Below are positions 5,258 to 22,845 of a stretch of 64,000 bases of DNA, in pieces. The DNA lies in NCBI GenBank assembly GCA_946187345.1, contig CAMHQD010000005.1:1-64000 (forward strand). The letters run 5' to 3'. The stretch is from an uncultured Porphyromonadaceae bacterium. GTDB lineage: Bacteria; Bacteroidota; Bacteroidia; Bacteroidales; Muribaculaceae. A model generated the notes under the pieces. It saw only the letters and a program-made list of their open reading frames with translations. It ran no database searches and had not been told where the DNA came from. Position numbers and translations under genes: made by a program. Position 1 is the stretch's first letter, and every line of letters begins with the position of its first letter.

Positions 5258-5560
5258 AAAACAGAAGAACTGTTGGATAAAGAGAAGAAGATGTTTTAAG
5301 TTCATTGACATTAGTCATATCCACATCAAAGCAGATCGGGATACTCTTCAAATTATATTGAAATGCCGAGAAACGTAGCCATATCAATGGCGGGCCTCAC
5401 TCCCTTAGTGGAGTCGCACCGGTTGTGACGGAGGATTACAGCGATATGGTTGCCCTCAAATCCTGTTTTTATCGGAGTTTCATCACATCCTTTGGTGTGG
5501 ATTTCCTATAGAAGTCTCGCGCGTACAACACTGTGATGTTGTGTGCCCGAGACTTTTTTT
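5258..5560 (+). ncRNA. Structured non-coding RNA of about 300 nt, 6S-like shape, family unknown
   Basis: The segment runs from a consensus promoter to a strong terminator and holds no plausible ORF. Its ends fold on each other. ATCCACATCAAAG (5319-5331) pairs with CTTTGGTGTGGAT (5490-5502) over 13 bp with one G-U. Further in, GATACTC (about 5339-5345) pairs with GAGTTTC (5475-5481) with one mismatch. CCATATC (5379-5385) pairs with GATATGG (5443-5449). ACTCC/GGAGT (5399-5414) closes an inner hairpin. A 5' hairpin AACAG/CTGTT (5260-5274) precedes these. The long rod with interior bubbles recalls 6S RNA. The hallmark segments of RNase P RNA, tmRNA (tag ORF) and SRP RNA were not found. The identity is therefore open. 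Confidence 0.6.
5513..5560 (+). terminator. Terminator of the structured RNA
   Basis: AGTCTCG (5513-5519) pairs with CGAGACT (5548-5554), and the inner arms ACAACA/TGTTGT (5525-5530 and 5537-5542) pair around CTGTGA. Seven T follow. Its 3' arm also carries the -33 element of the next promoter. Confidence 0.85.
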
Positions 5561-6896: not shown

Positions 6897-8585
6897 ATGA
6901 AGCGTTTTTTCACTAATCAACGGTTAATATATTGGATATTTGTGGTTGTGCTGATGATACCCAACATTGGCATGTTCTACACTGAGAGCACCGGCTTGCT
7001 CACGCGCGTTATTGCTGTGTTGCTGCCAGTGGGTTGCTATATGGCGGCCTTCACATTGCGACGGAGGCCAGGCGTAATGTTCTGGTGGTTGTTCTTGCTG
7101 GTGTTTATCGGCGCGTTCCAGACGTTCCTGCTATTCCTGTATGGCGAGAGTCCTATTGCTGTGGATATGTATCTTAACGTGGTCACCACCAATGTCACCG
7201 AGGCGAGCGAATTGCTTGCCAACCTGCTTGGTGGCCTGCTATTTGTTATTGGAGTGTATGGCGGCAGCATCGCGTTGGCTATTGTGTCGCAGCGTGCGTC
7301 TACGACTCTCGATGAATCGTTCCGTCATCGCTGGCGCCGTATGGGGCTCTGTTTGGCAGCGGCCGGGTTGTTGCTGCTCGGCGTGAATTATGCGGTTGAC
7401 AAACGCTTCCGCCTACTCAACGATGTGTTTCCGGTGAATGGTGTCTACAATATGGTTCTGGCAGTGGAGCGCTTTAGTGACGGTATCACTCGTGCGGACG
7501 ACTGGCGGACATTTGACGCCCAGGCCCACCGCACACGGCAAGACTCGGTGCCGGAGGTGTATGTGCTCATTGTGGGTGAGACGGCGCGCGCGGCCGATTT
7601 TGCCATATACGGCTATGACCGTCCCACCACGCCGCGACTGAGCGCATTGGGTGATAGCATTGTCGCCTTCAGCGACGCATTGACGATGAGCAACACGACC
7701 CACAAGAGTGTGCCGCTATTGTTAAGTGCGGTAGCCAGCGAGGGGAGTATGGATAGTCTCTATACTCAACGTGGATTGATTAACGCATTTGCCGGAGCCG
7801 GCTTTGCCACGGCTTATTATAGTAACCAGCGTCGCAATCATTCGTTCATAGACCGCTTTGGCAGCGAGGCCGATGAGGTGCATTTCCTCAAGGATAGCCT
7901 GCTGCTGGCAAACGTGTATGATGAGGAACTGTTGCCGCTTGTTGATGATCGCCTGGCTCGCTATGATGGCGGCAAACTGCTAATCGTGCTACACACCTAC
8001 GGGTCACACTTCAAATACCATGACCGCTATCCGGAGCAGATGGCTTACTTCAATCCCGAAAATCCTGTGAGTGCCGAGATGGTGATGCGTGACCAACTCG
8101 TGAACGGCTACGACAATACCATCCGTTATGCTGACCACATTGCCGGCGAGATAATCGCGAGACTGGATAGCCTTGATGTGCCCGCGGCAGTGATTTACAC
8201 CAGTGACCACGGCGAGGACATCTATGACGACAAGCGTGGCCGCCTGTTGCACGCCTCGCCTGTGCCTACCTATTGGCAGGTGCACGTGCCGCTGGTGGTG
8301 TGGACCTCAGGTGAGTACCGCACGTCTTATCCTGAAAAGTGGAGCGCGTTAGTTGCCAACGCTTCTCGTCCCGTGGCGACAAATATGGTACTTTATCACA
8401 CTGTACTCGATATGGCCGGCATCGCGACTCGTCTCACGCGCCCAGAGTTATCGCTTGCCGGTGCGGGATATAATCCACCAGAGCGCCTCTATGTGACAGA
8501 CCACAATGAATTCGTCCCTTTGAATCAAGCGGGCTTTAAGCGGCTTGACCTTGACGAGTTTAGCCGTCGCGGTATCTCATTCTGA
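6897..8585 (+). CDS. Phosphoethanolamine transferase, EptA-like (sulfatase/alkaline phosphatase fold)
   Basis: 562 residues, inner membrane, active site in the periplasm. Four to five hydrophobic helices cover residues 10-165. The catalytic domain begins with VLIVGETARAADF (Glu228 as metal ligand). The nucleophile is probably Thr267 or Thr268 in SNTTHKSVP, and the second metal site is TSDHGED near 435-441. This is the arrangement of EptA-type enzymes, which move phosphoethanolamine from phosphatidylethanolamine to lipid A or other envelope glycans and so lower surface charge. The acceptor cannot be read from the sequence. It follows the barrel gene on the same strand and ends before the large hairpin at 8607-8653. 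Confidence 0.88.
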   Translation: MKRFFTNQRLIYWIFVVVLMIPNIGMFYTESTGLLTRVIAVLLPVGCYMAAFTLRRRPGVMFWWLFLLVFIGAFQTFLLFLYGESPIAVDMYLNVVTTNVTEASELLANLLGGLLFVIGVYGGSIALAIVSQRASTTLDESFRHRWRRMGLCLAAAGLLLLGVNYAVDKRFRLLNDVFPVNGVYNMVLAVERFSDGITRADDWRTFDAQAHRTRQDSVPEVYVLIVGETARAADFAIYGYDRPTTPRLSALGDSIVAFSDALTMSNTTHKSVPLLLSAVASEGSMDSLYTQRGLINAFAGAGFATAYYSNQRRNHSFIDRFGSEADEVHFLKDSLLLANVYDEELLPLVDDRLARYDGGKLLIVLHTYGSHFKYHDRYPEQMAYFNPENPVSAEMVMRDQLVNGYDNTIRYADHIAGEIIARLDSLDVPAAVIYTSDHGEDIYDDKRGRLLHASPVPTYWQVHVPLVVWTSGEYRTSYPEKWSALVANASRPVATNMVLYHTVLDMAGIATRLTRPELSLAGAGYNPPERLYVTDHNEFVPLNQAGFKRLDLDEFSRRGISF

Positions 8586-10287: not shown

Positions 10288-12012
10288 CTACTCTTTAAGA
10301 ATCGCATTTAGGATGACATTAACATCGCCAACGTTCACCTCTCCATCGCCGTTAACGTCATACTTATTGTCACTATCTTCGTTGAGTATTGCCTCAAGAA
10401 CAACATTCACATCACCAACGTTCACTTCTTTATCTCCGTTAATATCAATTGGATTATCGGCCGACGGAATCTCAAACGCGGCTATGACGCAGGCAAACTG
10501 AGGCACGCTGAGCGCAGTGGCGCCGATGGTGACGTTGCCACGCACTCGCAACATAGCATACAGGCGGTCATCATTAATAATGATGTTTTGGGCAGTGGCA
10601 ACGCTTGAGCATAACTGCACTTGCTCATCAATCTCAAGGGTCGCGCAGTTGACTTTGCCAAGCATGGCCGGCGCATAGAGGCCATTGAACCACGCGGCAT
10701 AGATGTGGTTGCTATCGCACGGCGCGACATCGAAGAAGCCTGACCAGCCTTTGCCGAGAGTGATGCCGTTGAGTGCCTCGCCCGTAGTCTTGTCAAATTT
10801 AATCAGCAACGCGTCGCGCGTCAGTTTGCCGCTGTTCACGTCTTTGCCTCCGGCCATGAGCCCCAACTGCCCCTCGGCAGCCAGCCAAAGGCTCTCGCCA
10901 ATGACTTTGAACGACGGCACTTGAAGCGGCGTCTTGGTGTTGAGGGTGTTGGGGTAGATGTTAAACCACAGGGCGCTGAGGTCACTGTCAAAGCAGATGG
11001 CCGCTAAATTCAGGTTAGTGGTCGCGGGCACCTCAACGCTCTTACCGGCAAGTGAAACGGTGGCGGCCTCGCCGTTGCCGGTCATGTGTAGCAAAGCGTA
11101 AATCTTGTCTCCGTCCACGGCAAGACAACGTATATTGTCCTGAGTAATTTCGCCGGCAGTGGTGATGTGGCCCACATATTTACCAGTGTTGTCGAGTTTG
11201 ATGAGGAAGGCGTTGCCAACACTTTTCTGGCTATCGCCATCCCAACCAGTGATGTTGTGCGGCAAGATTGTTTTGCCGTCAATATAGATGGCTGCGCGTT
11301 GGTTGCCGGCAATGTAAATGTTGCCCTCGGCATCCATCGCGGCATCTGCCACTGTCACGCCACTGGAGATAAACTCGGCGTCAACAATGCCTGTAGCGGG
11401 TTCGGTCTCGACAGTTAGTAGTTTGGTCCATAGTAGTTTGCCATCGCCGTCTACTTTGACCACAAACGGACAATAGAAACGTTTCTCGACATTGAGGAAA
11501 GGCGATGAGATTGTTTGGTTATATCCCGGTCCGATGAGTGTCGGATTTAGCCCCTCGGCACCCTGGGTGACACGCAAGGCGGTGACAACCACGGCTCCAC
11601 CGTCGGCAGTTGGCATGACGCGTCCGTTGCCGGAGGCGATTTCGCCGTTGCTGGCATAGACACACCATTGAGGCGTGCCATCAGTCGCAATCTTTGTCAG
11701 GCAGAACGTCATGGGCGAAGCGGTGCCGTTGTAGTATGGCGTGCCGGCGGCAATGACGTTGTCGCCAAAAAGCACGCGGTCGCTCTCACTGCCTGCTCCC
11801 ACATTACCGAAGGCGAGAAGTGTGCCGTCTGTAGCCAAGGCGATGTTGGTGCCTTGAGTGGTCTGGCCTTGGCCGCTGACTGTGCTGATGGCGGGATCGA
11901 CTGTGAAAGCGTGTGCCCAAAGGGCTATGGTGCCATCGTTGAGCGACTGAGCGGCGGCGCAGATTGATGTGGCCGCAAATAATAATGCAAATAAATATTT
12001 TTTCATCTTCAA
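10288..12012 (-). CDS. Secreted repeat protein with C-terminal dockerin-type domain
   Basis: 574 residues with a clear signal peptide (KYLFALLFAATSICAAAQ). The body, about 480 residues, consists of recurring beta-rich units with a G-N-(I/A)-Y-(I/V)-A-G pattern, FLIKLDNTGKYV and similar lines, which suggests a propeller or SBBP-like fold. The last 55 residues are two calcium-loop repeats, DINGDKEVNVGDVN and DVNGDGEVNVGDVN, each followed by a short helix. That is the dockerin type I layout. It is a paralog of the next minus-strand gene: the PHN-TGWDGDSQKS region and the following lines align by eye. In gut Bacteroidales such dockerins are not tied to cellulosomes, and the binding partner is unknown. 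A hairpin at 12020-12046 separates the two genes. Confidence 0.75.
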   Translation of the reverse strand: MKMKKYLFALLFAATSICAAAQSLNDGTIALWAHAFTVDPAISTVSGQGQTTQGTNIALATDGTLLAFGNVGAGSESDRVLFGDNVIAAGTPYYNGTASPMTFCLTKIATDGTPQWCVYASNGEIASGNGRVMPTADGGAVVVTALRVTQGAEGLNPTLIGPGYNQTISSPFLNVEKRFYCPFVVKVDGDGKLLWTKLLTVETEPATGIVDAEFISSGVTVADAAMDAEGNIYIAGNQRAAIYIDGKTILPHNITGWDGDSQKSVGNAFLIKLDNTGKYVGHITTAGEITQDNIRCLAVDGDKIYALLHMTGNGEAATVSLAGKSVEVPATTNLNLAAICFDSDLSALWFNIYPNTLNTKTPLQVPSFKVIGESLWLAAEGQLGLMAGGKDVNSGKLTRDALLIKFDKTTGEALNGITLGKGWSGFFDVAPCDSNHIYAAWFNGLYAPAMLGKVNCATLEIDEQVQLCSSVATAQNIIINDDRLYAMLRVRGNVTIGATALSVPQFACVIAAFEIPSADNPIDINGDKEVNVGDVNVVLEAILNEDSDNKYDVNGDGEVNVGDVNVILNAILKE

Positions 12013-12075: not shown

Positions 12076-14163
12076 TTATCGGACGATGAGTTTGCTACCG
12101 GCGGCGATGTAGATGCCGGTGGGCAGGGTAGCGCTCTGGCCGGCATTGACAACGGCTACGCGTTGGCCGAGGGTGTTGTAAACCGTGACAGCCTCACTGC
12201 CGGTGGCAGTGACGGTGTTTCCGCTGACGCTCACGCCGCCCTTGTCGGCATTCAGGTCACGCACGGCGGTGGGATTGTCGACGCGCACTTGGATGCTTTG
12301 TTTTACAGAGGGATTGCCGGCACTGGTGACGGTGATGGTGGCAGTCTCGGCCGCCGGGGCGCGGCGAGCGGGAGCGTTGCTCCACGTGCCGTGCTTGTCG
12401 GCGGTGATAAGGCCATTCTCGTCGATGGTGGCAACGCTTTGGTCGCTGCTACTGTAGATGAGGGCGCCGTTGGCGGCGGTTGCCGGGATGACGGAGGCGT
12501 TGAGTTGATAGGTGTCGCCGCCGAGGTCGAGGACTATGGGTTGGCTCGGGTCAAGTCCTCCGAGGTCGATGCCGGAGATTGTGCCGGCGCTCTCGGGCAC
12601 CGTGATGGACTGCTGCACCCAGCGGAACTCCTCGCTATTGAACTTCTCGCCGCTGCCGGCAAACGTCACGTCGACGTTCTTGGCACCGTGGCGGAACATA
12701 AGGTAAACGTCAGTGCCGCGGGCGAGCAGCGACTGCGCGCTGGCTGTGAAATTGCAGTATTCCGCCTCGTCAAGCACCTCAAGAGATGTGGGGTCAATCT
12801 TATTGAGCAGGCCGGTGCTTGTCCACAAGGCGCTGGCGGGAGTGAGGCCGCGCTGGGCGACATAAAGGTTGCCGTCAACGCCCTCATAGAGACCGTAGAA
12901 ACTATTCTGGTTACTTGCCTTGACAAGGCATGCGGTGGGCTGGCCATTGGTGGCGTCAAACTGGATGAGCCACGGCTCGCGGGCATTGCGAGTGGCGCTG
13001 TTGGTATAGGTCTTGTCGCCGATGGTGAGCCCGAACTTGGCCGAGCCCGCCACATAGAGTTTGTCGCCAATCGCGGCGAGGGTGTGCTCGTTCCACGCGC
13101 TGCCGCTGACGCTCGAGGCGATATAGTTGGCCCAATTGACACCCAGGTTGGTGTTGAGTTCTGCGACGAGGAGGCCGCCATAGGTGGTAGCGGGAGTGAA
13201 CGTATTGTCGTCGAGGCTAAAGTCAGTGTTTGCCAGGCCGACAGCCCAAGCGAGCATATAGATTTTGTCGCCCACAATTTGGAGGCGTTGGACAGTCTCT
13301 TGGGTTGAAGAGCCTCTGCTGACGAGATGGTTGATGTAGTTGCCGTCGGCGTCAAGTTTGATGACGAAGAGGTTTCCGGCGGTCTTCTGCGCGCTACCGT
13401 TCCATGTGTCAACGTTATGGCAGGGGATGGTGACACCGTCGACGGTGACATCGGCACACATGATACCGCCCACGTAGATGTTGCCGACAGCGTCAACGTC
13501 GAGCGCGTTGGTTTTGATGCCTTGAGTGATGACGTCTTTTGCCTGTGACCATGCGGGATACTTGTCGGCAGCGGCGGTGGTGTCGGGCGTGAGTTCCTTG
13601 ATCCACTCGATGGCGCCATCGGCGTCGACCTTGATTACGATGGCGAGATAGGCACGTGTATCGCCATTGACAAGTTCCCAAGCAAGTTCGCGCGTGTCAC
13701 CGGCGGCATCGGTGAAAGCGATTGGCGCTGAATTGCCTTCGGTGTGTCGCACGTTGGTAAAGATTACCGCGCCGCCGTCGGCAGTGGCGGCAATCCTGTC
13801 CTCGTTGCTTGAAATCTCACCCACGCTCTGACAGATGCTCCAGAGCACATCGCCTCCTGTGGTCAACTTCATTGCCACAAGCCCCTGGTTGGCGCTGTTG
13901 CCGCTGTAACCGGCGACACCGGTCGCAACCTCATCGCCGCCGAACAGAATCGACTGCTCATCGCTTGTGGAGCCTGCCTGACCCACAACGAGGAGGTTGC
14001 CGTCGGCAGCAAAGGCCATACTGCCGCCCTGGCTCGTCACGGACGAGCCGCCGTCGCTGTTGCTTACTTCCTTGACCCAATTGGTCTGGAGGGTAAAAGA
14101 CTGTGCTGTGGCCATCGTCGCCGATGCCAGCAGAGCCAGTCCAATCATGTAGGTTTTTTTCAT
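12076..14163 (-). CDS. Secreted protein with BIG2-like domain and T9SS-type C-terminal domain
   Basis: 695 residues from the ATG at 14163 (MKKTYMIGLALLASATMATAQ is a good signal peptide; the longer reading frame to 14502 has no signal peptide and runs through the divergent promoter). Residues about 20-480 are the same beta-rich repeat body as in the neighbouring dockerin protein. Near 540-620 there is an Ig-like BIG2 pattern (SSSDQSVATIDENGLITA). The end, VYNTLGQRVAV followed by LPTGIYIAAGSKLIVR, is the form of a type IX secretion sorting domain, predicting surface display or release. It is divergent from the TonB receptor operon and probably belongs to the same function. Confidence 0.78.
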   Translation of the reverse strand: MKKTYMIGLALLASATMATAQSFTLQTNWVKEVSNSDGGSSVTSQGGSMAFAADGNLLVVGQAGSTSDEQSILFGGDEVATGVAGYSGNSANQGLVAMKLTTGGDVLWSICQSVGEISSNEDRIAATADGGAVIFTNVRHTEGNSAPIAFTDAAGDTRELAWELVNGDTRAYLAIVIKVDADGAIEWIKELTPDTTAAADKYPAWSQAKDVITQGIKTNALDVDAVGNIYVGGIMCADVTVDGVTIPCHNVDTWNGSAQKTAGNLFVIKLDADGNYINHLVSRGSSTQETVQRLQIVGDKIYMLAWAVGLANTDFSLDDNTFTPATTYGGLLVAELNTNLGVNWANYIASSVSGSAWNEHTLAAIGDKLYVAGSAKFGLTIGDKTYTNSATRNAREPWLIQFDATNGQPTACLVKASNQNSFYGLYEGVDGNLYVAQRGLTPASALWTSTGLLNKIDPTSLEVLDEAEYCNFTASAQSLLARGTDVYLMFRHGAKNVDVTFAGSGEKFNSEEFRWVQQSITVPESAGTISGIDLGGLDPSQPIVLDLGGDTYQLNASVIPATAANGALIYSSSDQSVATIDENGLITADKHGTWSNAPARRAPAAETATITVTSAGNPSVKQSIQVRVDNPTAVRDLNADKGGVSVSGNTVTATGSEAVTVYNTLGQRVAVVNAGQSATLPTGIYIAAGSKLIVR

Positions 14164-14202
14164 AAATTTTGACGAATTTAGTATGATTTGTATTTTCGAC
14201 GG

Positions 14203-14232
14203 CAAAATTACTGCATTCCGGTAGTATGCAAA
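14203..14232 (-). promoter_or_regulatory. -33/-7 promoter of the secreted paralog pair
   Basis: Minus-strand TTTG (14229-14232) and TAATTTTG (14203-14210) are 18 bp apart. The start would be near 14197, with a leader of about 34 nt. It lies back to back with the receptor promoter at 14281-14312. Confidence 0.6.
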
Positions 14233-14280
14233 ATCGCAAAATTTGGTGAAAAAGCCAATGTCATATCCCCCCGATTGGTT

Positions 14281-14312
14281 ATTGTGCATACCGAATAATG
14301 GTAGTAATTTTG
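14281..14312 (+). promoter_or_regulatory. -33/-7 promoter of the TonB receptor operon
   Basis: ATTG (14281-14284) and TAATTTTG (14305-14312) are 20 bp apart, a consensus spacing. Transcription would start at about 14316-14319, only two to five bases before the ATG at 14321, so the mRNA would be nearly leaderless. It also shows that the reading frame upstream of 14321 is not coding. Confidence 0.7.
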
Positions 14313-14320
14313 CAGGCGAA

Positions 14321-17113
14321 ATGGATAGGAACTTAACAATCAGGCGGCTTGAGGTGCTGCTGGTAATGACGATTGCGACGGCTTTCGCGGCCGTGGCGGC
14401 GACCGTGCGCGGCACGGTGCGCGACGCCGCCACCGGTGACGGTGTGCCCTTTGCCACGGTCACTGTCCATCCCGGAGGAGTTGCGTCGGCCACCGATGCC
14501 AATGGTCGCTTTTTCTTTGAACTCAGTTCGGGCTCTTATGAGTTAAAGGCTTCATACGTAGGATATAAACCGGCTTCAGTTAGAGTGACAGTCAAGGCGG
14601 ACGTCGATGTGACAATCACAATTCAGGAGGATTCGCAATTACTCGACGAAGTTGTGATTACCGCCACCGAAGGTGCCGGTCTGTCGTCGAGCAGCCGCAT
14701 TGACCGCGACGCGATGAGTCACCTGCAACCCACCAGTTTCACCGACCTGCTTGAATTGTTGCCGGGCAACGTGAGCCATACGCCTGACATGGGTAGCGCC
14801 AACACTATCAAACTGCGGGAAACCGGCACACTGGGTGCCAACGGCCAAGCAACCGAGGGGAGTGACTACACCATCTCGTCGCTCGGCACGTTATTTGTTG
14901 TTGACGGGGCACCCGTCAACGGCGATGCCAACCTGCAGAGTGTGCCCGGTAGCAGTAGCACCGACCCAGAGGGCAAACGCGATATTACCAACCGCGGTGT
15001 TGACATGCGCACCATCAGTACCGACAACATCGAGAGCGTGGAGGTCGTGCGCGGTATCCCAAGCGCCGAGTATGGCAACCTCACAAGCGGTATGGTGAAC
15101 ATCAAACGCATCCGCCGCGCCACGCCGCTCACGGCGCGCTTCAAGGCCGACGAATACAGTAAACTTGTGAGTATTGGTAAAGGTTTCAACCTGGGAACAC
15201 GAGACCATGTGATGAACGTGGACGGCAGTTACCTCGACAGTAAAGTGGATCCACGCAACAATCTTGAGAATTACAAGCGATTGACGCTCTCGACGCGCCT
15301 TAACATGCGTTGGGATCGCCCCGCGTTGCAAACCGGCTGGGTCGTTGGTGTGGACTATACAGGTTCGTTTGACAATAGCAAGACAGACCCCGACTTGAGT
15401 TATAACCGCATTAACGAGTACCGCAGCAGTTATAACCGGGTCGCTTTGACAAGCGACTTGAACCTTCGCTTGACACGCTGCCGCTGGCTCAACCACATCA
15501 ACGTCAATACCAGCGTGAGTTATCAGAGTGACCGGCTCACACGGCGTCGTCAAGTGTCGCCGCAGCGCGCCAGTGTTGCGCCAACCACAATGGAGGCGGG
15601 CGAGCACGATGGGCGATACTTGTTGAGTGAGTATATCGCTGACTACAGTAACGATGGCCGTCCGGTCAATATTTTTGTCAAGGCTAAAGCCGAGGGTGAG
15701 GCCGGCACAACGACATTCCTTAATAAATATAAGGTGGGCGTGGAATGGAATTTCTCCAAGAATTACGGTCGCGGGCAGGTATATGACCTTGAACGACCGC
15801 TCAGTGCGTCGTGGACGACGCGTCCGCGAGCCTTTAGCGACATTCCGTCGCTGAACGTTGTGTCGGCATTCGTCGAAGACGACATGAGCGCTCGCATCGG
15901 TTCGCACACACTGCAGTTGCAGGCCGGGTTGCGCTCCATCGGTCTCGCAGGATTGGGTAGCCGCTATACGCTTGCCGGTAAACTTTATCTTGACCCGCGC
16001 TTCAATCTCAAGTGGGAGTTTCCGTCCATCACGGTGGGGGAGCGGCAACTCAAACTGCATTTGGCCGGCGGCTATGGCTTGACGACCAAGATGCCTACTA
16101 TTGCCTATCTCTTTCCTCAGGCTCATTACAGCGATTTTATCCAACTCAATTACTACGATGTGAACGACCCCGCCGGTCGTAGCCGCATAAGCCTGCGCAC
16201 ATATATTGACGATGTGACCAACTACGACCTGCGTGCCGCACGCAACAGCAAATGGGAAGTGAGATTGGGCGCCTCGATTGGCAAGAATACGCTCTCTATC
16301 ACCTACTTTAACGAGCGTATGAGCGACGGCTATCGCTATACGGCTGTTTATCACCCGTACTCTTACACCCGCTATGACGTGAGTGCCATCGACCCGGCCA
16401 CGCTCACGGCGCCACCCACGCTTGATGGACTTCCAAGCCGGGCCGTCAGCGAACTTGACGGCTATCGCATGGCATCCAACGGTAGTCGTCTCAACAAGCA
16501 GGGCATCGAGTTTACCTTAGCCACAGCGCGCTGGCGGCCGTTAGCCACGGCGCTTACCGTCACCGGCGCGTGGTTCCATTCCACTTACAGCAACTCGATG
16601 ATGCTCTACGACCCGGTGAGTGAGGTTATTGACGGTCGTCGCGTGGCCGATAGTTACATTGGCCGCTATGACTACGTTGACGGCCGGGTGAACGACCAGT
16701 TCAATACCAACTTCATGTTTGACACTCAGATTAAGCGATGGGGGCTTATATTTTCCACCAGTGTGCAGTGCATGTGGTTTGTGACCACTCGCAAACTGTG
16801 GCAGAACGGTGTGCCGATGAGTTACCTCGACGTGGCCGACGGACAGTTGCACCCTTACGATGAAACGGCTCAGGCAGATGCCGTGCTGCAATCGCTTGTT
16901 AGAACTTATAACCCGGCGTCGTTCAACCGGCAAACGGTTCCGATGGCGCTTTATGTCAACCTCAAGGCAACAAAGCAGGTGGGCAAATGGCTGAAAATCG
17001 CGGTTTTCGCTAACCGACTGATTGATTATTTGCCCGACTATACGAGCAATGGTCTCAAGATACGACGTACGAGTGACCCTTACTTCGGCATGGAGTTGAA
17101 TTTCACACTATAA
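14321..17113 (+). CDS. TonB-dependent outer membrane receptor with N-terminal carboxypeptidase-like domain
   Basis: 930 residues from the ATG at 14321, with a signal peptide to about residue 27. A CarboxypepD-regulatory-like domain (ATVRGTVRDAATGDGVPFA and YELKASYVGYKP) covers about residues 28-110. The plug follows, with LDEVVITATEG, then DGAPVNGDANLQ and VEVVRGIPSAEYGNLTSGM. The remainder is a 22-strand type barrel ending in YFGMELNFTL. Such receptors use TonB energy to bring a ligand across the outer membrane. There is no SusD gene next to it, which argues against a standard glycan utilisation locus. The following genes (DUF4876-like lipoprotein, DUF6850-like barrel, M16 protease) run in the same direction with gaps of 53, 24 and 18 bp and should be one operon. 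Confidence 0.93.
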   Translation: MDRNLTIRRLEVLLVMTIATAFAAVAATVRGTVRDAATGDGVPFATVTVHPGGVASATDANGRFFFELSSGSYELKASYVGYKPASVRVTVKADVDVTITIQEDSQLLDEVVITATEGAGLSSSSRIDRDAMSHLQPTSFTDLLELLPGNVSHTPDMGSANTIKLRETGTLGANGQATEGSDYTISSLGTLFVVDGAPVNGDANLQSVPGSSSTDPEGKRDITNRGVDMRTISTDNIESVEVVRGIPSAEYGNLTSGMVNIKRIRRATPLTARFKADEYSKLVSIGKGFNLGTRDHVMNVDGSYLDSKVDPRNNLENYKRLTLSTRLNMRWDRPALQTGWVVGVDYTGSFDNSKTDPDLSYNRINEYRSSYNRVALTSDLNLRLTRCRWLNHINVNTSVSYQSDRLTRRRQVSPQRASVAPTTMEAGEHDGRYLLSEYIADYSNDGRPVNIFVKAKAEGEAGTTTFLNKYKVGVEWNFSKNYGRGQVYDLERPLSASWTTRPRAFSDIPSLNVVSAFVEDDMSARIGSHTLQLQAGLRSIGLAGLGSRYTLAGKLYLDPRFNLKWEFPSITVGERQLKLHLAGGYGLTTKMPTIAYLFPQAHYSDFIQLNYYDVNDPAGRSRISLRTYIDDVTNYDLRAARNSKWEVRLGASIGKNTLSITYFNERMSDGYRYTAVYHPYSYTRYDVSAIDPATLTAPPTLDGLPSRAVSELDGYRMASNGSRLNKQGIEFTLATARWRPLATALTVTGAWFHSTYSNSMMLYDPVSEVIDGRRVADSYIGRYDYVDGRVNDQFNTNFMFDTQIKRWGLIFSTSVQCMWFVTTRKLWQNGVPMSYLDVADGQLHPYDETAQADAVLQSLVRTYNPASFNRQTVPMALYVNLKATKQVGKWLKIAVFANRLIDYLPDYTSNGLKIRRTSDPYFGMELNFTL

Positions 17114-17166
17114 CGTTACTCACGAGACTTCGTCCCGCATTACAAAACAGAAAAATTTGATTTCAA

Positions 17167-18438
17167 ATGAAGATAATTTTTAAATTACTGATGGCTGTGG
17201 CCGTTGTTATTACCGCCGGTGGCTGTGACGACAAACTCGACAATAACTTGATTGAGCGATATGCCTTGCCGGTGGCTATCTCTTTGCCGGCCAACGTGAC
17301 CGGCGAGATAATCAACGAGAAGATAGAGGTGCGCGACGTGTCGAGCGGCGCCAAAACAGTCTATAGTGCCTTGGGAGATGTGAAACTCAAGACCGGACTC
17401 TATGATGTGAGTTACGATGCCGATGTTGTCAGTGACGGCGTGTCGCGCCACGTGTGCGGTTACGTGCAGTCGGTTCAAGTTGGGGAACAAGCACGCACAG
17501 TTGCGATGACGGCATATGAGAACCGAGTTAGTGATGATTTCATTATCCAAGAGATATTCTTCACCGGCACATTGCAAGGCAGCGGCAACCAATATTATGG
17601 CGACGACTACGTGAAAATTTACAACAACACCGATCATGTGCTCTATGCTGACGGCTTGACGTTTGTCGAGTCAAAATTCCTTACTACCGAGAAGTATGAC
17701 TACATGCCAGACATCATGTCAACTCACATGACAGTACAGGCCATCTACACCATCCCCGGTAGTGGTAGGGATTACCCGGTTGAGCCGGGTGGTAGCCTCC
17801 TGCTCGCCGATACCGGTATTGACCACCGCGTGGCAAACCCAAACTCGTTTGACTTGAGCGGTGCCGACTTTGAGTGGTTCGATGTGTCGAGCCAGCCGGC
17901 TCATCTCGATATTGACGGCCCCACAGTGCCGAACCTCGACAAGTGGTATTGCTACACCCAATCATTCTTCCTGTTGCATAACCGCGGTTTCCGTGCCTAT
18001 GCTCTTGCACGCATACCGGTGGACAAAGACTCTTATCTTGCCGAGAACCGCTATACCTATGAGTACGTCATGATGGTGACCGCCGGCACGTTCCCTATGT
18101 CACAAACGAGTTATAAGTTGCCCAACAAGTGGATTGTTGACGCGGTAAATTGCAGCGTCGAGGCAAAATATGCCTGGAACGTAACGTCTCCCGAACTCGA
18201 CCGCGGATGGACCTATTGCGGCACGATGGACAAGGACAAGAGCCGCTATTTCCATAGCGTTCGCCGCAAGATGCTCTACCTCAAGGACGGCCGTCCGGTG
18301 CTCAAGGATACCGACAACAGCACTGAAGATTTCAACCCCTACTGCGTGCCCAGTGAGATTGAGCGGCAGGGAACAGCGATTGATGTTAACGGCACGCCTT
18401 GCACCACCATCACATGGGATGGTGTGGTGGCCAAATAA
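17167..18438 (+). CDS. Surface or periplasmic lipoprotein, DUF4876-like
   Basis: 423 residues. The signal peptide ends in a lipobox (VVITAGGC, Cys at about residue 20), so the mature protein is lipid-anchored. A small beta domain lies at about residues 35-125. The core then starts with FIIQEIFFTGTLQGSGNQYYGDDYVKI (given in parts: IIQEIFFTGTL, then QYYGDDYVKIYNNTD), a pattern I associate with DUF4876 and which resembles lamin-tail-like beta domains. In many Bacteroidales this kind of lipoprotein travels with a TonB receptor and a DUF6850 barrel, as here. It could be the ligand-binding lipoprotein of the receptor, in the role SusD has in glycan systems. That role is inferred. Confidence 0.75.
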   Translation: MKIIFKLLMAVAVVITAGGCDDKLDNNLIERYALPVAISLPANVTGEIINEKIEVRDVSSGAKTVYSALGDVKLKTGLYDVSYDADVVSDGVSRHVCGYVQSVQVGEQARTVAMTAYENRVSDDFIIQEIFFTGTLQGSGNQYYGDDYVKIYNNTDHVLYADGLTFVESKFLTTEKYDYMPDIMSTHMTVQAIYTIPGSGRDYPVEPGGSLLLADTGIDHRVANPNSFDLSGADFEWFDVSSQPAHLDIDGPTVPNLDKWYCYTQSFFLLHNRGFRAYALARIPVDKDSYLAENRYTYEYVMMVTAGTFPMSQTSYKLPNKWIVDAVNCSVEAKYAWNVTSPELDRGWTYCGTMDKDKSRYFHSVRRKMLYLKDGRPVLKDTDNSTEDFNPYCVPSEIERQGTAIDVNGTPCTTITWDGVVAK

Positions 18439-18446
18439 CAATGACC

Positions 18447-18462
18447 ACTAACGATTAACGAC
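18447..18462 (+). repeat. 16-bp spacer motif ending at a start codon, copy 1
   Basis: ACTAACGATTAACGAC lies directly before the GTG start at 18463. An identical 16-mer is at 25113-25128, just before the start of the DAHP synthase gene. Confidence 0.75.
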
Positions 18463-19953
18463 GTGAAACAAACAGTTATAACGCTCATATTGGCAATTTG
18501 TGGCTTTAGAGCCGTGGCCGGCGTAGTCAACCGCGTGGACGACGATGCCGTGTCGCCGCGCTCGCTGCTCAAGACGACTTGGCATAGCCCCGTGGCAATG
18601 GAACAGCGACGTGATAGCGCGCTAAGTGCCGTTGGCGGCCACTATGCCTTGCGCCATGAGGACGAGCCGCTTGACGCGCGCCGCGGAAACCGTGAGCAGA
18701 CGTTTTCGTTCCTTGCCTCCACCTATCTTCACCACCGCGCGAGTACGTTGTGGGGGAGTGCTCGCTATGACAATGCCACAGTAAAGGGAATGAGATGGAA
18801 CGAGACGAGCGACATAGACATTGTGTCGCCATATCTGCTGGCCGACAGTGTGGCAACAGGAACGATGTACGGCGAGCGCTACGCCTTTATGGGCGGATAT
18901 GCCGGCCATAGCGGACGGTGGCATTATGGCGCGACACTCGCTTATGAGGCGGGCCAATACTATCGCCGTGTTGATCCGCGACCGCGCAATGTTACCGCCA
19001 ACCTCGACTTGTCTGTCGGTGGCGGTGTTGACCTGCGCCAATATCGCCTCTCGCTGGCCATCGGTTTCAATCGTTACAAGCAAACCAACGATGTGACTTT
19101 CTATAGTGAGATGGGCAATGACAAATTATTCCACCTCACCGGACTCGTCACGGATTACGGCCGCTTTGGCGGCACCGGTTATTCAACCTACTATCGCGGG
19201 CACCGCTGGCAAGCAGTTGTCACATTGACACCGCAGAATACTCATGGCCTATGGGGGGCGGTTCGCCTCTCGCGTATGAGCGTTGATAACGTGATCACAT
19301 CACTCAACAAGTTGCCGATGGCTAATGTCACTATGAATCGGGCCGATGTCGAATTTGGTTGGCTGCAGCCAAGATGGGGCGTTGTAGCCGTCGCGCACTT
19401 GTCTCGCCGATTGGGTACGGAAAATGTCTTTGGCGATGCGGCAGCCGGCGTTTATCCCGAGATTGGGTCGTTGTCTCTCTATCGTGAGAACCGCGCTGCG
19501 GTCGCCTTGCGTGGCGTGTACAGCCATGTTATCGGGCACTGGATGCTAACCGCGCGTGCCATGGCCGGGTATGATCACTTGAACGTCATCTACCTCGATC
19601 CGCAGTGTCGCCAATTGGTGAACCGCATTACCGCCGCTACCGCGTTCACGGCTGCTTTCAGCACGCTGCGTCACACTACAGCCTTCAATATTGGCGCCGA
19701 CATCTCCGCGCCCACGGCCGATGAACTCTTGCTGCCCACAATCAAAGATGAACTCGCCGGCTTGACTCGCCAACTCATGGCGCGTCACGACATGATGAGC
19801 CATAGCGCAACCGCTGTGACCGTTGGCCTGCGCCACACCCACGCCATTGGCTCTCGCTTTGCTATTGAGGGAACCGTAGCCTACCGCCACGGTTTCCACT
19901 TCAACGACGTAGCCAGCCACAGCGTCAACGCCTCGCTACGATTCCTTTTCTGA
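18463..19953 (+). CDS. Outer membrane beta-barrel protein, DUF6850-like
   Basis: 496 residues starting with GTG. A signal peptide (KQTVITLILAICGFRAVAG) is followed by about 470 residues of alternating polar and aromatic strands, with several Y-R/Y-x-R turns, ending in VNASLRFLF with a terminal phenylalanine, which is typical for an outer membrane barrel. I assign it to the DUF6850 type from its size, strand pattern and position after the DUF4876-like gene, not from a diagnostic motif. It is the third gene of the receptor operon. A second barrel in a receptor operon may serve as an accessory pore or assembly partner. No enzyme motif is visible. Confidence 0.72.
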   Translation: MKQTVITLILAICGFRAVAGVVNRVDDDAVSPRSLLKTTWHSPVAMEQRRDSALSAVGGHYALRHEDEPLDARRGNREQTFSFLASTYLHHRASTLWGSARYDNATVKGMRWNETSDIDIVSPYLLADSVATGTMYGERYAFMGGYAGHSGRWHYGATLAYEAGQYYRRVDPRPRNVTANLDLSVGGGVDLRQYRLSLAIGFNRYKQTNDVTFYSEMGNDKLFHLTGLVTDYGRFGGTGYSTYYRGHRWQAVVTLTPQNTHGLWGAVRLSRMSVDNVITSLNKLPMANVTMNRADVEFGWLQPRWGVVAVAHLSRRLGTENVFGDAAAGVYPEIGSLSLYRENRAAVALRGVYSHVIGHWMLTARAMAGYDHLNVIYLDPQCRQLVNRITAATAFTAAFSTLRHTTAFNIGADISAPTADELLLPTIKDELAGLTRQLMARHDMMSHSATAVTVGLRHTHAIGSRFAIEGTVAYRHGFHFNDVASHSVNASLRFLF

Positions 19954-19971
19954 AAAAACGATAATAATAAT

Positions 19972-22845
19972 ATGAAACACTTCATCAATCTATTCAATGT
20001 GTGCGGAGCAAAGTGGCCAAGCCGCTTTGTGGTTGTCGCAGCACTGGCAGTTGCTGCCGCCCTAACCGCCTCCGCCCAAATGCGTGAACCGGTCCCCGTC
20101 GATCCCGACCTCCGTACCGGCACCCTGTCTAACGGACTCACCTACTACGTTCGTCACAACGACTACCCCGAGCACCGCGCTGACTTCTTCATCGCACAGC
20201 GGGTCGGCTCGATTCAGGAAATGGAAAGTCAGCGAGGCTTGGCTCACTTCTTGGAGCACATGTGTTTCAATGGTACGCGCCACTTTCCCGGCAATGCGAT
20301 CATTGACTATATGGAGAGCATCGGCGTTAAGTTCGGCGCTAACCTTAATGCCTACACGAGCACTGACGAGACCGTCTATAACATCTGCAACGTGCCCACC
20401 ACGCGACAAGGCGCGCTCGACACCTGTTTGCTCGTGCTAAGCGACTGGAGCCAAGACCTCTTGCTCAAGGGCAAGGATATTGACGAGGAGCGCGGCGTGA
20501 TAGAAGGGGAATACCGCCACCGTGCCGGCGCTAATTACCGCTTTTTAGACAAGGCCCTGCCGCGCCTCTATCCCGGCAGCCTCTATGGCCAGCGCCAGCC
20601 GATCGGCCTAATGAGCGTCGTCAAGACGTTTAAACATAAAGTGCTGCGCGACTACTACAAGCGTTGGTACCACCCATCCAACCAATGTATCATCGTTGTG
20701 GGTGATATTGATGCCGATCGCACTGTCGCTCAAATAGAGAAACTTTTCGGCAAAGTGAAGAATCCTAAGAACGCGCCCGCTGTCACCCCGGTTGCTGTGC
20801 CTGACAACGAGCAGGCTATCACTATTGTCGAGACCGACCCTGAGCAAACAACAACCAGTGTGCGCCTCATGTTCAAGCATGACGGCCTTGACGACGCGCT
20901 CAACCCTACAGTCGAATTCCTGCGACATGACTATGTGCGTACCATTGTTGTGGCGATGCTGCGCGAACGTATGGCTGATGTGGTGAAGCAGCCCGGCTCA
21001 CCCGTCACCCACGTGGGGATCACCGACCGCAACTATATGCTCTCCAAGACAAAGCAAGCGCTGCAGATCTTCGCTACCGCTCGCGACGCATCTGTGTCCG
21101 ACAGTGCCATGACGTGGATCGCGCGTGAAGTGCGTCGCGCTGTTGAGCACGGTTTTACAGAAGGAGAACTGCGTCGGGCGCAACTTGACTATGAGGCAGC
21201 ACTTGACAAGTTCTACCGTGAGCGCGACAAATACACTAATACGCGTTATGCACGCGACTTTGTGCGCGCCTACCTTGACGGTGAACCCGTGCCAAGTATT
21301 GAGCAGAACTATCGCCTCATGCAACGCATTATCAGCCAAGTGACCCTCACCGATGCTGACAACTATCTGCGTTCCATTGTCAGCGACACCGACCGCAACG
21401 TTGTTCTTGTGACATTCGCTCCCGAGGCACAGCGCGCCGCTTTGCCCACCGAGGCTGCTCTGCTCGATGCCTTCCACCAGGGGCGTGACGCATCCACCGA
21501 AGCCTATGTTGACACCCTCAAGGCGTCACAGTTGCTTCCCTCTCTGCCCCATGCCGGCAAGGTTGTTGATGAGCAACGCGTGCCGGAGTTTGACGCTACC
21601 TGTTGGACTCTATCCAATGGCATACACGTCTATGTTAAACCCACAACAATCACGGCGGGTGAAGTCGTTCTCGCCGGCACCTCACGTGGAGGATTCTCGC
21701 AAGGTTATGACCCGCAACACGTGGCAAGTTATAAAGCGTTGGATGGAGTCATTGCCGCCTCGGGTTTCGGACAGTTCTCCTCGTCTGACCTCAAGAAGGT
21801 TTTAGCCGGAAAAGACGTGAAGATGCGTACCTTTGTCAATAAGGTGAGCGAAGGCTTCCAAGGCAGCAGTTCGCGTACTGACCTCGAGACTGCCATGCAG
21901 TTACTCCACCTCAAGTTGACGCGCCCTGTTAAGGACGAAGGCTCGTTCACTGCCTATCTCGAGAGCAACCGCAGCCGCATCGCTGGTCAGGGCAATGACC
22001 CGAAGTATGAGTTTGCCGACTCTATCTTCTCCAATGTCTTTAACGGGCACCCGCTCGGCGCCGAGCGTCTCACTTTGCCGCAAATCGATCAAGTGGACTA
22101 CGACTTTGTCCTCGACGTTTATCGTGACCGCATGAGCGACTTGAGCGACCTTAACGTAATTATAGTGGGAGACTTCGACACCGACTCTCTTAAGAATCTC
22201 GTTGAGACCTATATCGCTTCACTGCCCGGCGGCGGACGTGTCGAGCAACCAGCCGACATCGCCTACCGTCTCTTCCCTGCGAGCAAGCGCAACTATTGGA
22301 CCCGTCACATGGAGAATCCGCAAGACAAGGTCTATTACTTCTGGACAAACGATTGCCCCTATAACCTGCGCAACACCCTGCTTGCCAAAATTTCCGGTCA
22401 ACTGGTCACCAACATCCTGCGTGAGGAGTTGCGTGAGAAACGCGGTTGGACTTATCATGTAGACACCCACTGCAGCGTGGTCACAGACCAGAACGGTGAT
22501 GACGGCCCCGTTATCTTCATGCCGCTAAACGTTACAGTGCAGGCCGGTACGGCGGCGGCCACTCGAGACATTATCGAGGCGACCATCGCGTCTGTCGCGC
22601 GTGACGGTGTAACGGCCGAGGCTCTTGACAAAGTGAAGAAATATCTCATCAAAGTCCACAACGAGGACATCACAGACAATACCTATTGGATGGCGATGAT
22701 CAATAACTTCGTTAAGCACGACATGGACTTCAACGCCACTTATGTTGATACTATAAATGCCATTACGCCTGCTGATATTACCGATTTCGTTGCCCGTTAC
22801 ATAGTTTCGGGTCGTGTTCTCACCCTCACCATGACGCCCGAATAA
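19972..22845 (+). CDS. Exported M16-family zinc metalloprotease (pitrilysin type)
   Basis: 957 residues with a signal peptide cleaved after about residue 35 (TASAQ), so it acts in the periplasm. The inverted zinc motif HFLEH (His92, Glu95, His96) and the distant ligand Glu172 or Glu173 in DEERGVIEGEY are all present, so the first half is an active M16 domain. The second half repeats the fold without the motif, giving the two-half clam-shell that takes in unfolded peptides. It is the last gene of the TonB receptor operon, only 18 bp after the barrel gene. M16 proteases next to TonB receptors are known to cut imported proteins (FusC with FusA for ferredoxin). A similar job is possible here. Confidence 0.9.
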   Translation: MKHFINLFNVCGAKWPSRFVVVAALAVAAALTASAQMREPVPVDPDLRTGTLSNGLTYYVRHNDYPEHRADFFIAQRVGSIQEMESQRGLAHFLEHMCFNGTRHFPGNAIIDYMESIGVKFGANLNAYTSTDETVYNICNVPTTRQGALDTCLLVLSDWSQDLLLKGKDIDEERGVIEGEYRHRAGANYRFLDKALPRLYPGSLYGQRQPIGLMSVVKTFKHKVLRDYYKRWYHPSNQCIIVVGDIDADRTVAQIEKLFGKVKNPKNAPAVTPVAVPDNEQAITIVETDPEQTTTSVRLMFKHDGLDDALNPTVEFLRHDYVRTIVVAMLRERMADVVKQPGSPVTHVGITDRNYMLSKTKQALQIFATARDASVSDSAMTWIAREVRRAVEHGFTEGELRRAQLDYEAALDKFYRERDKYTNTRYARDFVRAYLDGEPVPSIEQNYRLMQRIISQVTLTDADNYLRSIVSDTDRNVVLVTFAPEAQRAALPTEAALLDAFHQGRDASTEAYVDTLKASQLLPSLPHAGKVVDEQRVPEFDATCWTLSNGIHVYVKPTTITAGEVVLAGTSRGGFSQGYDPQHVASYKALDGVIAASGFGQFSSSDLKKVLAGKDVKMRTFVNKVSEGFQGSSSRTDLETAMQLLHLKLTRPVKDEGSFTAYLESNRSRIAGQGNDPKYEFADSIFSNVFNGHPLGAERLTLPQIDQVDYDFVLDVYRDRMSDLSDLNVIIVGDFDTDSLKNLVETYIASLPGGGRVEQPADIAYRLFPASKRNYWTRHMENPQDKVYYFWTNDCPYNLRNTLLAKISGQLVTNILREELREKRGWTYHVDTHCSVVTDQNGDDGPVIFMPLNVTVQAGTAAATRDIIEATIASVARDGVTAEALDKVKKYLIKVHNEDITDNTYWMAMINNFVKHDMDFNATYVDTINAITPADITDFVARYIVSGRVLTLTMTPE

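Follow-up and report, generated by a model that had tools for sequence, protein, structure and literature searches.

A DUF4876-type TonB receptor operon with an exported M16 protease: a candidate iron-source import module in Bacteroidota

Introduction

Proteobacteria possess import systems, Fus and YddB/PqqL, in which a TonB receptor and an M16 protease of PqqL/FusC relationship are encoded in one operon with a link to iron. The published Fus survey, in the parts drawn on here, describes clusters without FusC that in multiple cases carry cytochrome c peroxidase genes, proposed to release the iron cofactor, and reports that FusB and FusD are not universal in Fus clusters (PMC6793856).

In Bacteroidota, loci combining a DUF4876 gene with a TonB receptor form part of the iron-starvation response of Porphyromonas and Bacteroides, according to the available portions of an expression study (PMC10434189). 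Iron depletion raised expression of PG1019-22 by 20.8-214.5-fold, of BT1933-39 by 3.5-7.4-fold and of BT3625-33 by 38.1-128.1-fold, and BT2063-65 and the hmu loci, of the XusABC and Hmu iron/haem systems, are named as well (same portions, PMC10434189). In the figure 1C legend of that source, PG1019-21 and BT1938-39 share a group with a locus of Prevotella intermedia. Its Table 3 gives two P. intermedia entries, a five-gene 'TonB-dependent transport system' (PIOMA14_I_0804-08, 5.2-33.2-fold) and 'TonB-dep. receptor, peptidase, 50S protein' (PIOMA14_I_1877-79, 9.4-72.4-fold), neither of which is specified as the M16 form; the paper's text contains neither 'M16' nor 'insulinase' nor 'zinc protease' (PMC10434189). 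Excerpts of a hemin study give a DUF4876 gene a log2 fold change of -5.42, with the same sign as HmuY (PMC10470040), and PG_1019 and PG_1020 are listed in the consulted part of a PG_0686-mutant study (PMC10101095).

DUF4876 is named in the open-access literature, where the passages concerned give no function, and we found no paper in that literature naming the DUF6850 family. Likewise, a search of mainly open-access literature, with few subscription papers, returned no paper describing a protease-linked module of this kind in Bacteroidota. Here we analyze such a locus in a window of 64,000 nucleotides (contig CAMHQD010000005.1, positions 1 to 64,000) from the 2.79 Mb genome of an uncultured member of the Muribaculaceae (GCA_946187345.1), the closest named relatives of which belong to Bacteroidales, and compare it with its relatives and with the systems above.

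Results

Four intact, co-directional open reading frames occupy positions 14321-22845, separated by intergenic gaps of 53, 24 and 18 bases. They encode, in order, a TonB-dependent receptor (14321..17113, plus strand, 930 aa) with an N-terminal carboxypeptidase-regulatory-like domain (Pfam CarbopepD_reg_2, 64.9 bits; Plug, 43.2 bits), a DUF4876 lipoprotein (17167..18438, plus strand, 423 aa; Pfam DUF4876, 238.4 bits), a DUF6850 outer-membrane beta-barrel of about 18 long strands (18463..19953, plus strand, 496 aa, GTG start as listed; Pfam DUF6850, 252.5 bits) and an exported M16 protease whose sequence resembles that of PqqL (19972..22845, plus strand, 957 aa; Peptidase_M16_C, 118.9 bits, and Peptidase_M16, 83.0 bits). 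Two genes for secreted proteins are divergent from this operon, and prephenate dehydratase is the next gene 3' of the M16 gene, 170 bases on. The first-pass annotation had described a receptor, lipoprotein, barrel and M16 operon that lacked SusD and glycan enzymes, ended in an exported M16 protease with an intact HFLEH motif and faced a divergent secreted pair. This description held throughout: all four frames are open, co-directional and carry the domains named, and a domain scan of six proteins (the four of the operon and the two divergent ones) found neither SusD nor glycan-enzyme families. HFLEH lies at residue 92 with the downstream motifs in place, and the divergent pair is present on the minus strand at 10288-12012 and 12076-14163, beyond the segment which that annotation had covered. 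The four operon genes include no FusB-like (TonB-like) or FusD-like gene. The DUF4876-module layout of Bacteroidota, a DUF4876 lipoprotein beside a TonB receptor and a DUF6850 barrel, is present in the window, and the same gene set was seen again in many genomes. We judge the operon to be ordinary as a TonB operon and unusual in its partner place.

At the sequence level, the receptor would stand outside the FusA/YddB family. A profile of 35 receptors searched against PDB sequences gave 23 matches up to E 10, all confined to the N-terminal domain and plug (among them a SusC homolog, 47.5 bits; RagA, 30.8; ferric enterobactin receptor, 22.9, E 0.00017; colicin I receptor, 20.0), and none of the 23 was labelled as a FusA or YddB chain. 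The single receptor sequence gave five PDB matches, confined to residues 21-151 and likewise without FusA/YddB. The plug resembles SusC/RagA and, weakly, enterobactin receptors, and the profile result slightly favours a siderophore. Like SusCD/RagAB, the window's receptor has the N-terminal carboxypeptidase-regulatory-like domain and the plug similarity; unlike them, it scored 77.5 bits against the SusC/RagA model (cut-off 368.25), its lipoprotein is DUF4876, and SusD and glycan enzymes are missing. The window shares the combination of DUF4876 and a TonB receptor with the iron-responsive PG1019-22, BT1938-39 and BT3625-33, and its lipoprotein, probably located at the cell surface, matches the BT_1938 structure (4q1z). 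BT3625-33 differs from the window in having PepSY, ABC and DUF4857 genes. XusABC and Hmu of Bacteroidota likewise join a TonB receptor to accessory genes under iron control; DUF4876 forms a separate family. Fold searches with the DUF6850 protein returned generic barrels only, a result that rules out no family.

The protease carries HFLEH at residue 92, ERGVIxxE at 173 and LREKxGxxY at 820. In a PDB sequence search its best match was 9ldy, 'Peptidase, M16 family' (616 bits), a closest solved M16 for which we found no describing paper, then PqqL (248.6) and 6b03 (120.1), labelled putative zinc protease in the PDB listing and which we take to be FusC. It is a FusC/PqqL-type protease, and its active-site motifs are intact. 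HFLEH occurs in 71 of 72 M16 proteins compared, the remaining, unlinked one having HLLEH, so the motif is not a mark of the linked group.

The genes closest to this protease are linked to the module. DUF4876 was detected in 58 of 120 genomes, the window's own included; across the 120, all 17 matches to the window's M16 with at least 58% identity lie beside DUF4876 (17/17, counting the window's own), and the next match below this group, at 41% identity, is unlinked. For comparison, we examined 21 control loci, which carry 27 other M16 genes; DUF4876 and DUF6850 were absent from all of them. At the edge of one of these control loci there is a weak receptor match (86 bits).

From the DUF4876 side the partner varies. 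In a first sample of 62 further DUF4876 loci of relatives, M16 occurred within the fetched stretch in 37, a remnant (L039) and split copies (e.g. L054) included; the loci without it held the secreted protein x419 (18/62), DUF4857 (3/62) or none of these (4/62), and none of the 62 had two together. Under an operon rule (same strand, gaps below 300 bases), M16 was present in 35 of the 62, absent from 20 and the locus incomplete in 7; one locus (L082) counts among those without M16 because its DUF4876 gene is split. The second sample comprised the 80 named-record loci closest in DUF4876 (best 80 of 472), 14 of which overlap the first. Among these best 80 of 472, the partner was M16 in 38, a DUF4857/ABC cassette in 18 and a di-haem cytochrome c peroxidase domain protein (CCP) in 10; 42 loci were thus without M16, including 14 in which no partner was found. 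No locus had two partner types, an absence that does not amount to 80 independent observations because partner types follow lineage in part. The CCP domain was identified by Pfam on two loci and by similarity on the remainder of the 10, and all 10 CCP loci belong, by title, to Flavobacteriales or Sphingobacteriales. In L161, from Segatella copri, DUF4876 and M16 are both present, and the contig stops short of the receptor. Carriers of the DUF4857 cassette include Bacteroides fragilis, Phocaeicola sartorii and Porphyromonas uenonis; our own genome has no DUF4857 match. A PepSY membrane protein accompanies 11 of the 18 cassettes (domains checked on L146), and PepSY proteins such as FoxB are described, in the excerpts used, as periplasmic ferric reductases that can reduce ferric siderophores (PMC10866019). 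PepSY proteins are also found with copper receptors (PMC12914433). The cassette proteins are short (about 190 aa, PepSY_TM_like_2) and missing from 7 of the 18 cassettes, so a reductase role for them is drawn by analogy.

The protease belongs to the receptor system. The cross-genome check proposed in the first-pass annotation, whether the M16 gene is always linked to this receptor type, came out positive for the closest proteases (17/17) and negative from the module's side, with 42 of the 80 named loci (best 80 of 472) lacking M16. Its counter-case, a protease usually found elsewhere in relatives, describes the other M16 genes, which are located elsewhere, and does not apply to the 17 linked ones.

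An M16 tree was built from 38 of the 72 proteins, omitting near-copies and long rows (e.g. L096, L098 and L131). Its 13 linked A-type proteins formed one fully supported group and its 10 linked B-type proteins another, and unlinked proteins lay between the two; a single group of all linked proteases was rejected at AU p 0.012, a nominal value because the groups were chosen after a first tree. The receptor tree (71 rows, with nine partnerless rows left out of the change count) requires at least 3 changes between M16 and other partners, and 4 when all partner types are considered. In three Prevotellaceae loci, L142, L143 (Segatella buccae) and L145, the receptor is from the A side but the protease is B-type. 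Together, the two trees and the mixed loci show that the protease entered such modules, or passed from one to another, more than once; repeated gain and loss from an older link are indistinguishable in these trees. In a distant operon from another family (L096), receptor, DUF4876, DUF6850 and M16 are all present, with the M16 on a long branch.

The divergent genes encode two secreted proteins of one SBBP-like propeller family, as an alignment of 30 members indicates. DIV1 (12076..14163, minus strand, 695 aa, ATG at 14163) has a Big_2 domain (34.9 bits) and a T9SS type A-like C-terminal tail that scored 14.4 bits against Por_Secre_tail, under the cut-off of 23; DIV2 (10288..12012, minus strand, 574 aa, TTG start as listed) had no match to that model, ends in a dockerin-type tail (Dockerin_1, 25.2 bits) and scored 22.3 bits with the SBBP lipoprotein model, far under its cut-off. 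SBBP repeats were recognised in 8 of the 30 family members and T9SS type A tails in 11 (E 0.05). The window's genome contains GldK (514.9 bits), presumably a T9SS component. We regard the family as part of the module because its genes sit within the operon at five loci (L142, L143, L145, L146 and L150), and the secreted proteins may bring ligand to the receptor.

The ATG codons of the receptor (14321) and DIV1 (14163) are 157 bases apart. This interval contains putative Bacteroidetes-type -7 elements for the divergent genes (TAATTTTGC, 14202..14210, minus strand) and for the receptor operon (TAATTTTGC, 14305..14313, plus strand). Between the divergent genes lie two pseudo-palindromic putative operator sites, 32 bases apart, at 14233..14250 (12 of 14 consensus positions) and 14265..14282 (11 of 14), neither assigned to a strand. 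Across 18 A-side promoters (near-copy L044 left out), the 32-base spacing gave the top mean pair score, 18.8 (mean over spacings 16.5, SD 0.57), compared with a highest score of 16.1 in 40 shuffled sets; it was not the top spacing in 25 other promoters. The operator consensus was drawn from the same sequences, which makes its enrichment circular, but the 32-base spacing was not built in. With two mismatches the 18-base pattern matched 111 sites in our own genome, compared with 25 for the reversed control, and a regulon defined by this pattern was discarded because such sites are too common. A cobalamin uptake theme was also set aside: an Rfam scan of the window and 13 of the 62 relatives' loci found no cobalamin riboswitch. 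The genes beside one of the relatives' operons (L055) are presumably cob genes.

A hemerythrin-LuxR gene lies directly 3' of M16 in 16 of the 62 relatives' loci, and all 16 high-scoring matches to it are placed directly after M16 (gaps of 20-239 bases; domains shown on one). Iron-responsive hemerythrin/regulator pairs are reported as BT0519-20 and PG1236-37 (CdhR), and as fused in P. intermedia, in the portions of the expression study used here (PMC10434189). A comparable pair, likewise split, lies on a different contig of the window's genome (112 and 52 bits). DUF2023, strongly iron-induced in relatives, had no match in this genome and was found in 3 of 73 genomes.

Discussion

We propose that the TonB receptor and the DUF4876 lipoprotein would capture and import an iron source, that the DUF6850 barrel and the secreted propeller-type proteins may help at or outside the outer membrane, and that a periplasmic partner enzyme would release the iron. 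The M16 protease of this lineage would cleave an iron carrier, either protein or peptide, in the way that FusC cleaves ferredoxin; the partner in related operons would be a di-haem peroxidase or else a DUF4857/ABC cassette, which PepSY often accompanies. We give this whole model, an iron-starvation import module with M16 cutting the imported iron carrier, a probability of roughly 0.4. Its component claims differ in strength. That the module imports an iron source is probable, the iron regulation being known from relatives, and, given such uptake, proteolysis of the imported cargo by M16 stands at slightly better than even odds. A siderophore or a peptide carrier is possible as cargo. In favour of the model stand the iron response of DUF4876 loci in relatives, the match to BT_1938, the recurrent linkage and repeated joining of M16, the single partner per locus (best 80 of 472), the parallel with Fus clusters and the hemerythrin-LuxR genes next to M16. 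Against it count the receptor matches, with no FusA or YddB chain up to E 10 and a plug that suits a siderophore equally well, the 42 of 80 named loci (best 80 of 472) without M16, and the lack of any DUF2023 or DUF4857 match in the window's genome.

The parallel with Fus that the first-pass annotation had drawn is borne out for the protease, whose closest named matches are PqqL and then 6b03, and fails for the receptor, whose matches up to E 10 include no FusA or YddB chain. A protease recurs in the receptor operon as in Fus-type systems (38 of the 80 named loci, best 80 of 472, and 35 of the 62 relatives' loci), and M16 and cytochrome c peroxidase alternate in both; that this alternation recurs with a different receptor module argues most strongly for a Fus-like way of working. 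The window operon differs from Fus in adding DUF4876, DUF6850 and secreted proteins, and in having no FusB/FusD-like gene. By analogy, we judge that the system may work like Fus while not being a Fus member; we file it outside Fus because its receptor has no FusA or YddB chain among its matches up to E 10. Tentatively, and with the odds against it, one may go further and see a phylum-wide iron-piracy platform of Bacteroidota, in which a conserved import module has one exchangeable slot (M16, di-haem peroxidase or PepSY-type cassette) and which would represent a second, convergent invention of Fus-like iron-protein import by another receptor family with the same protease/peroxidase swap. In such a platform a secreted propeller is often present and would collect the ligand.

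Appreciable weight, short of even odds, goes to import of a small ferric siderophore or haem, with M16 trimming peptide parts of the carrier or serving only in maintenance. The resemblance of the receptor plug to ferric enterobactin receptors fits this explanation, as do the DUF4857/ABC cassettes in 18 of the 80 loci (best 80 of 472), 11 of them with PepSY. So do the response of DUF4876 loci to iron (PMC10434189), the DUF4876 gene among those changed with hemin availability (PMC10470040) and the capacity of PepSY proteins to reduce ferric siderophores (PMC10866019), each as given in the portions of these sources used. A maintenance role would fail to explain why, in separate receptor clades, M16 takes the place that redox or transport partners fill at other loci.

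We consider it unlikely that the module takes up peptides or proteins for M16 to digest as a source of amino acids. M16 proteases do digest peptides, the plug resembles that of RagA, a peptide importer, and in the distant operon L096 an S46 peptidase gene lies two genes after M16. Such a role accords poorly with the di-haem peroxidase found in the same place in other loci and with the iron regulation in relatives (available portions of PMC10434189), and the relatives' data favour iron over a nutritional use of protein. More improbable again is a protective function in which M16 destroys antimicrobial peptides or bacteriocins entering via this receptor. TonB receptors are common entry doors for bacteriocins, and the patchy linkage of M16 would suit such a function, which fails to explain that no locus combines M16 with CCP or DUF4857 (best 80 of 472).

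According to the consulted parts of the expression study, the strongly iron-induced genes of Bacteroidota include DUF4876 loci (PMC10434189). The partner pattern offers a concrete, testable function for the proposed iron-source import module, and it suggests that the class of ligand can be read from the gene next door. Were the M16 branch to import proteins, gut and rumen commensals would pirate iron from proteins of the host, the diet or their neighbours.

Among the 62 further DUF4876 loci of relatives, 18 encoded x419, a secreted protein, and M16 was present in none of these 18. Two examples of x419 (L075:9238–10494 and L083:10907–12124; L-numbers denote loci fetched from other genomes, in their own coordinates) carry a C-terminal tail that, judged by eye, resembles those of T9SS substrates, and a Pfam search of x419 gave no match above the cut-off. 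Long M16 genes also occur in clusters, with three each in L112 and L113 and two in L109, control loci fetched for other M16 genes; no DUF4876 or receptor matches were found within these fetched stretches.

Module composition varied further. At L039:8657–12843, receptor and DUF4876 are retained, M16 is a remnant of only 449 codons and DUF6850 was not found; the module may be in decay at this locus. At L096:11217–18457, from a different family, the genes after M16 encode a membrane 4Fe-4S protein and then an S46 peptidase. DUF4876 genes number three in tandem in Capnocytophaga periodontitidis (L196:7101–11224) and two in Porphyromonas uenonis (L146), and a DUF4876 protein of Prevotella koreensis (L178:8506–9957) contains a BspA-type leucine-rich repeat region.

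In the window, at 14305–14323, the receptor ATG lies 7 bases past the end of the presumed −7 element, and the receptor mRNA may thus be almost leaderless. Upstream, the plus strand encodes the 6S-like Bacteroidales-1 RNA (5319–5508, 104.8 bits) and an EptA/EptB-type phosphoethanolamine transferase (6897–8585) with Sulfatase and EptA_B_N domains.

Alongside the PepSY/ABC/DUF4857 cassette, one of the alternative partners to M16, small lipoprotein-like proteins (L146:14533–15117, L047:2976–3608) share a CTHxCKHG motif and could possibly bind metal.
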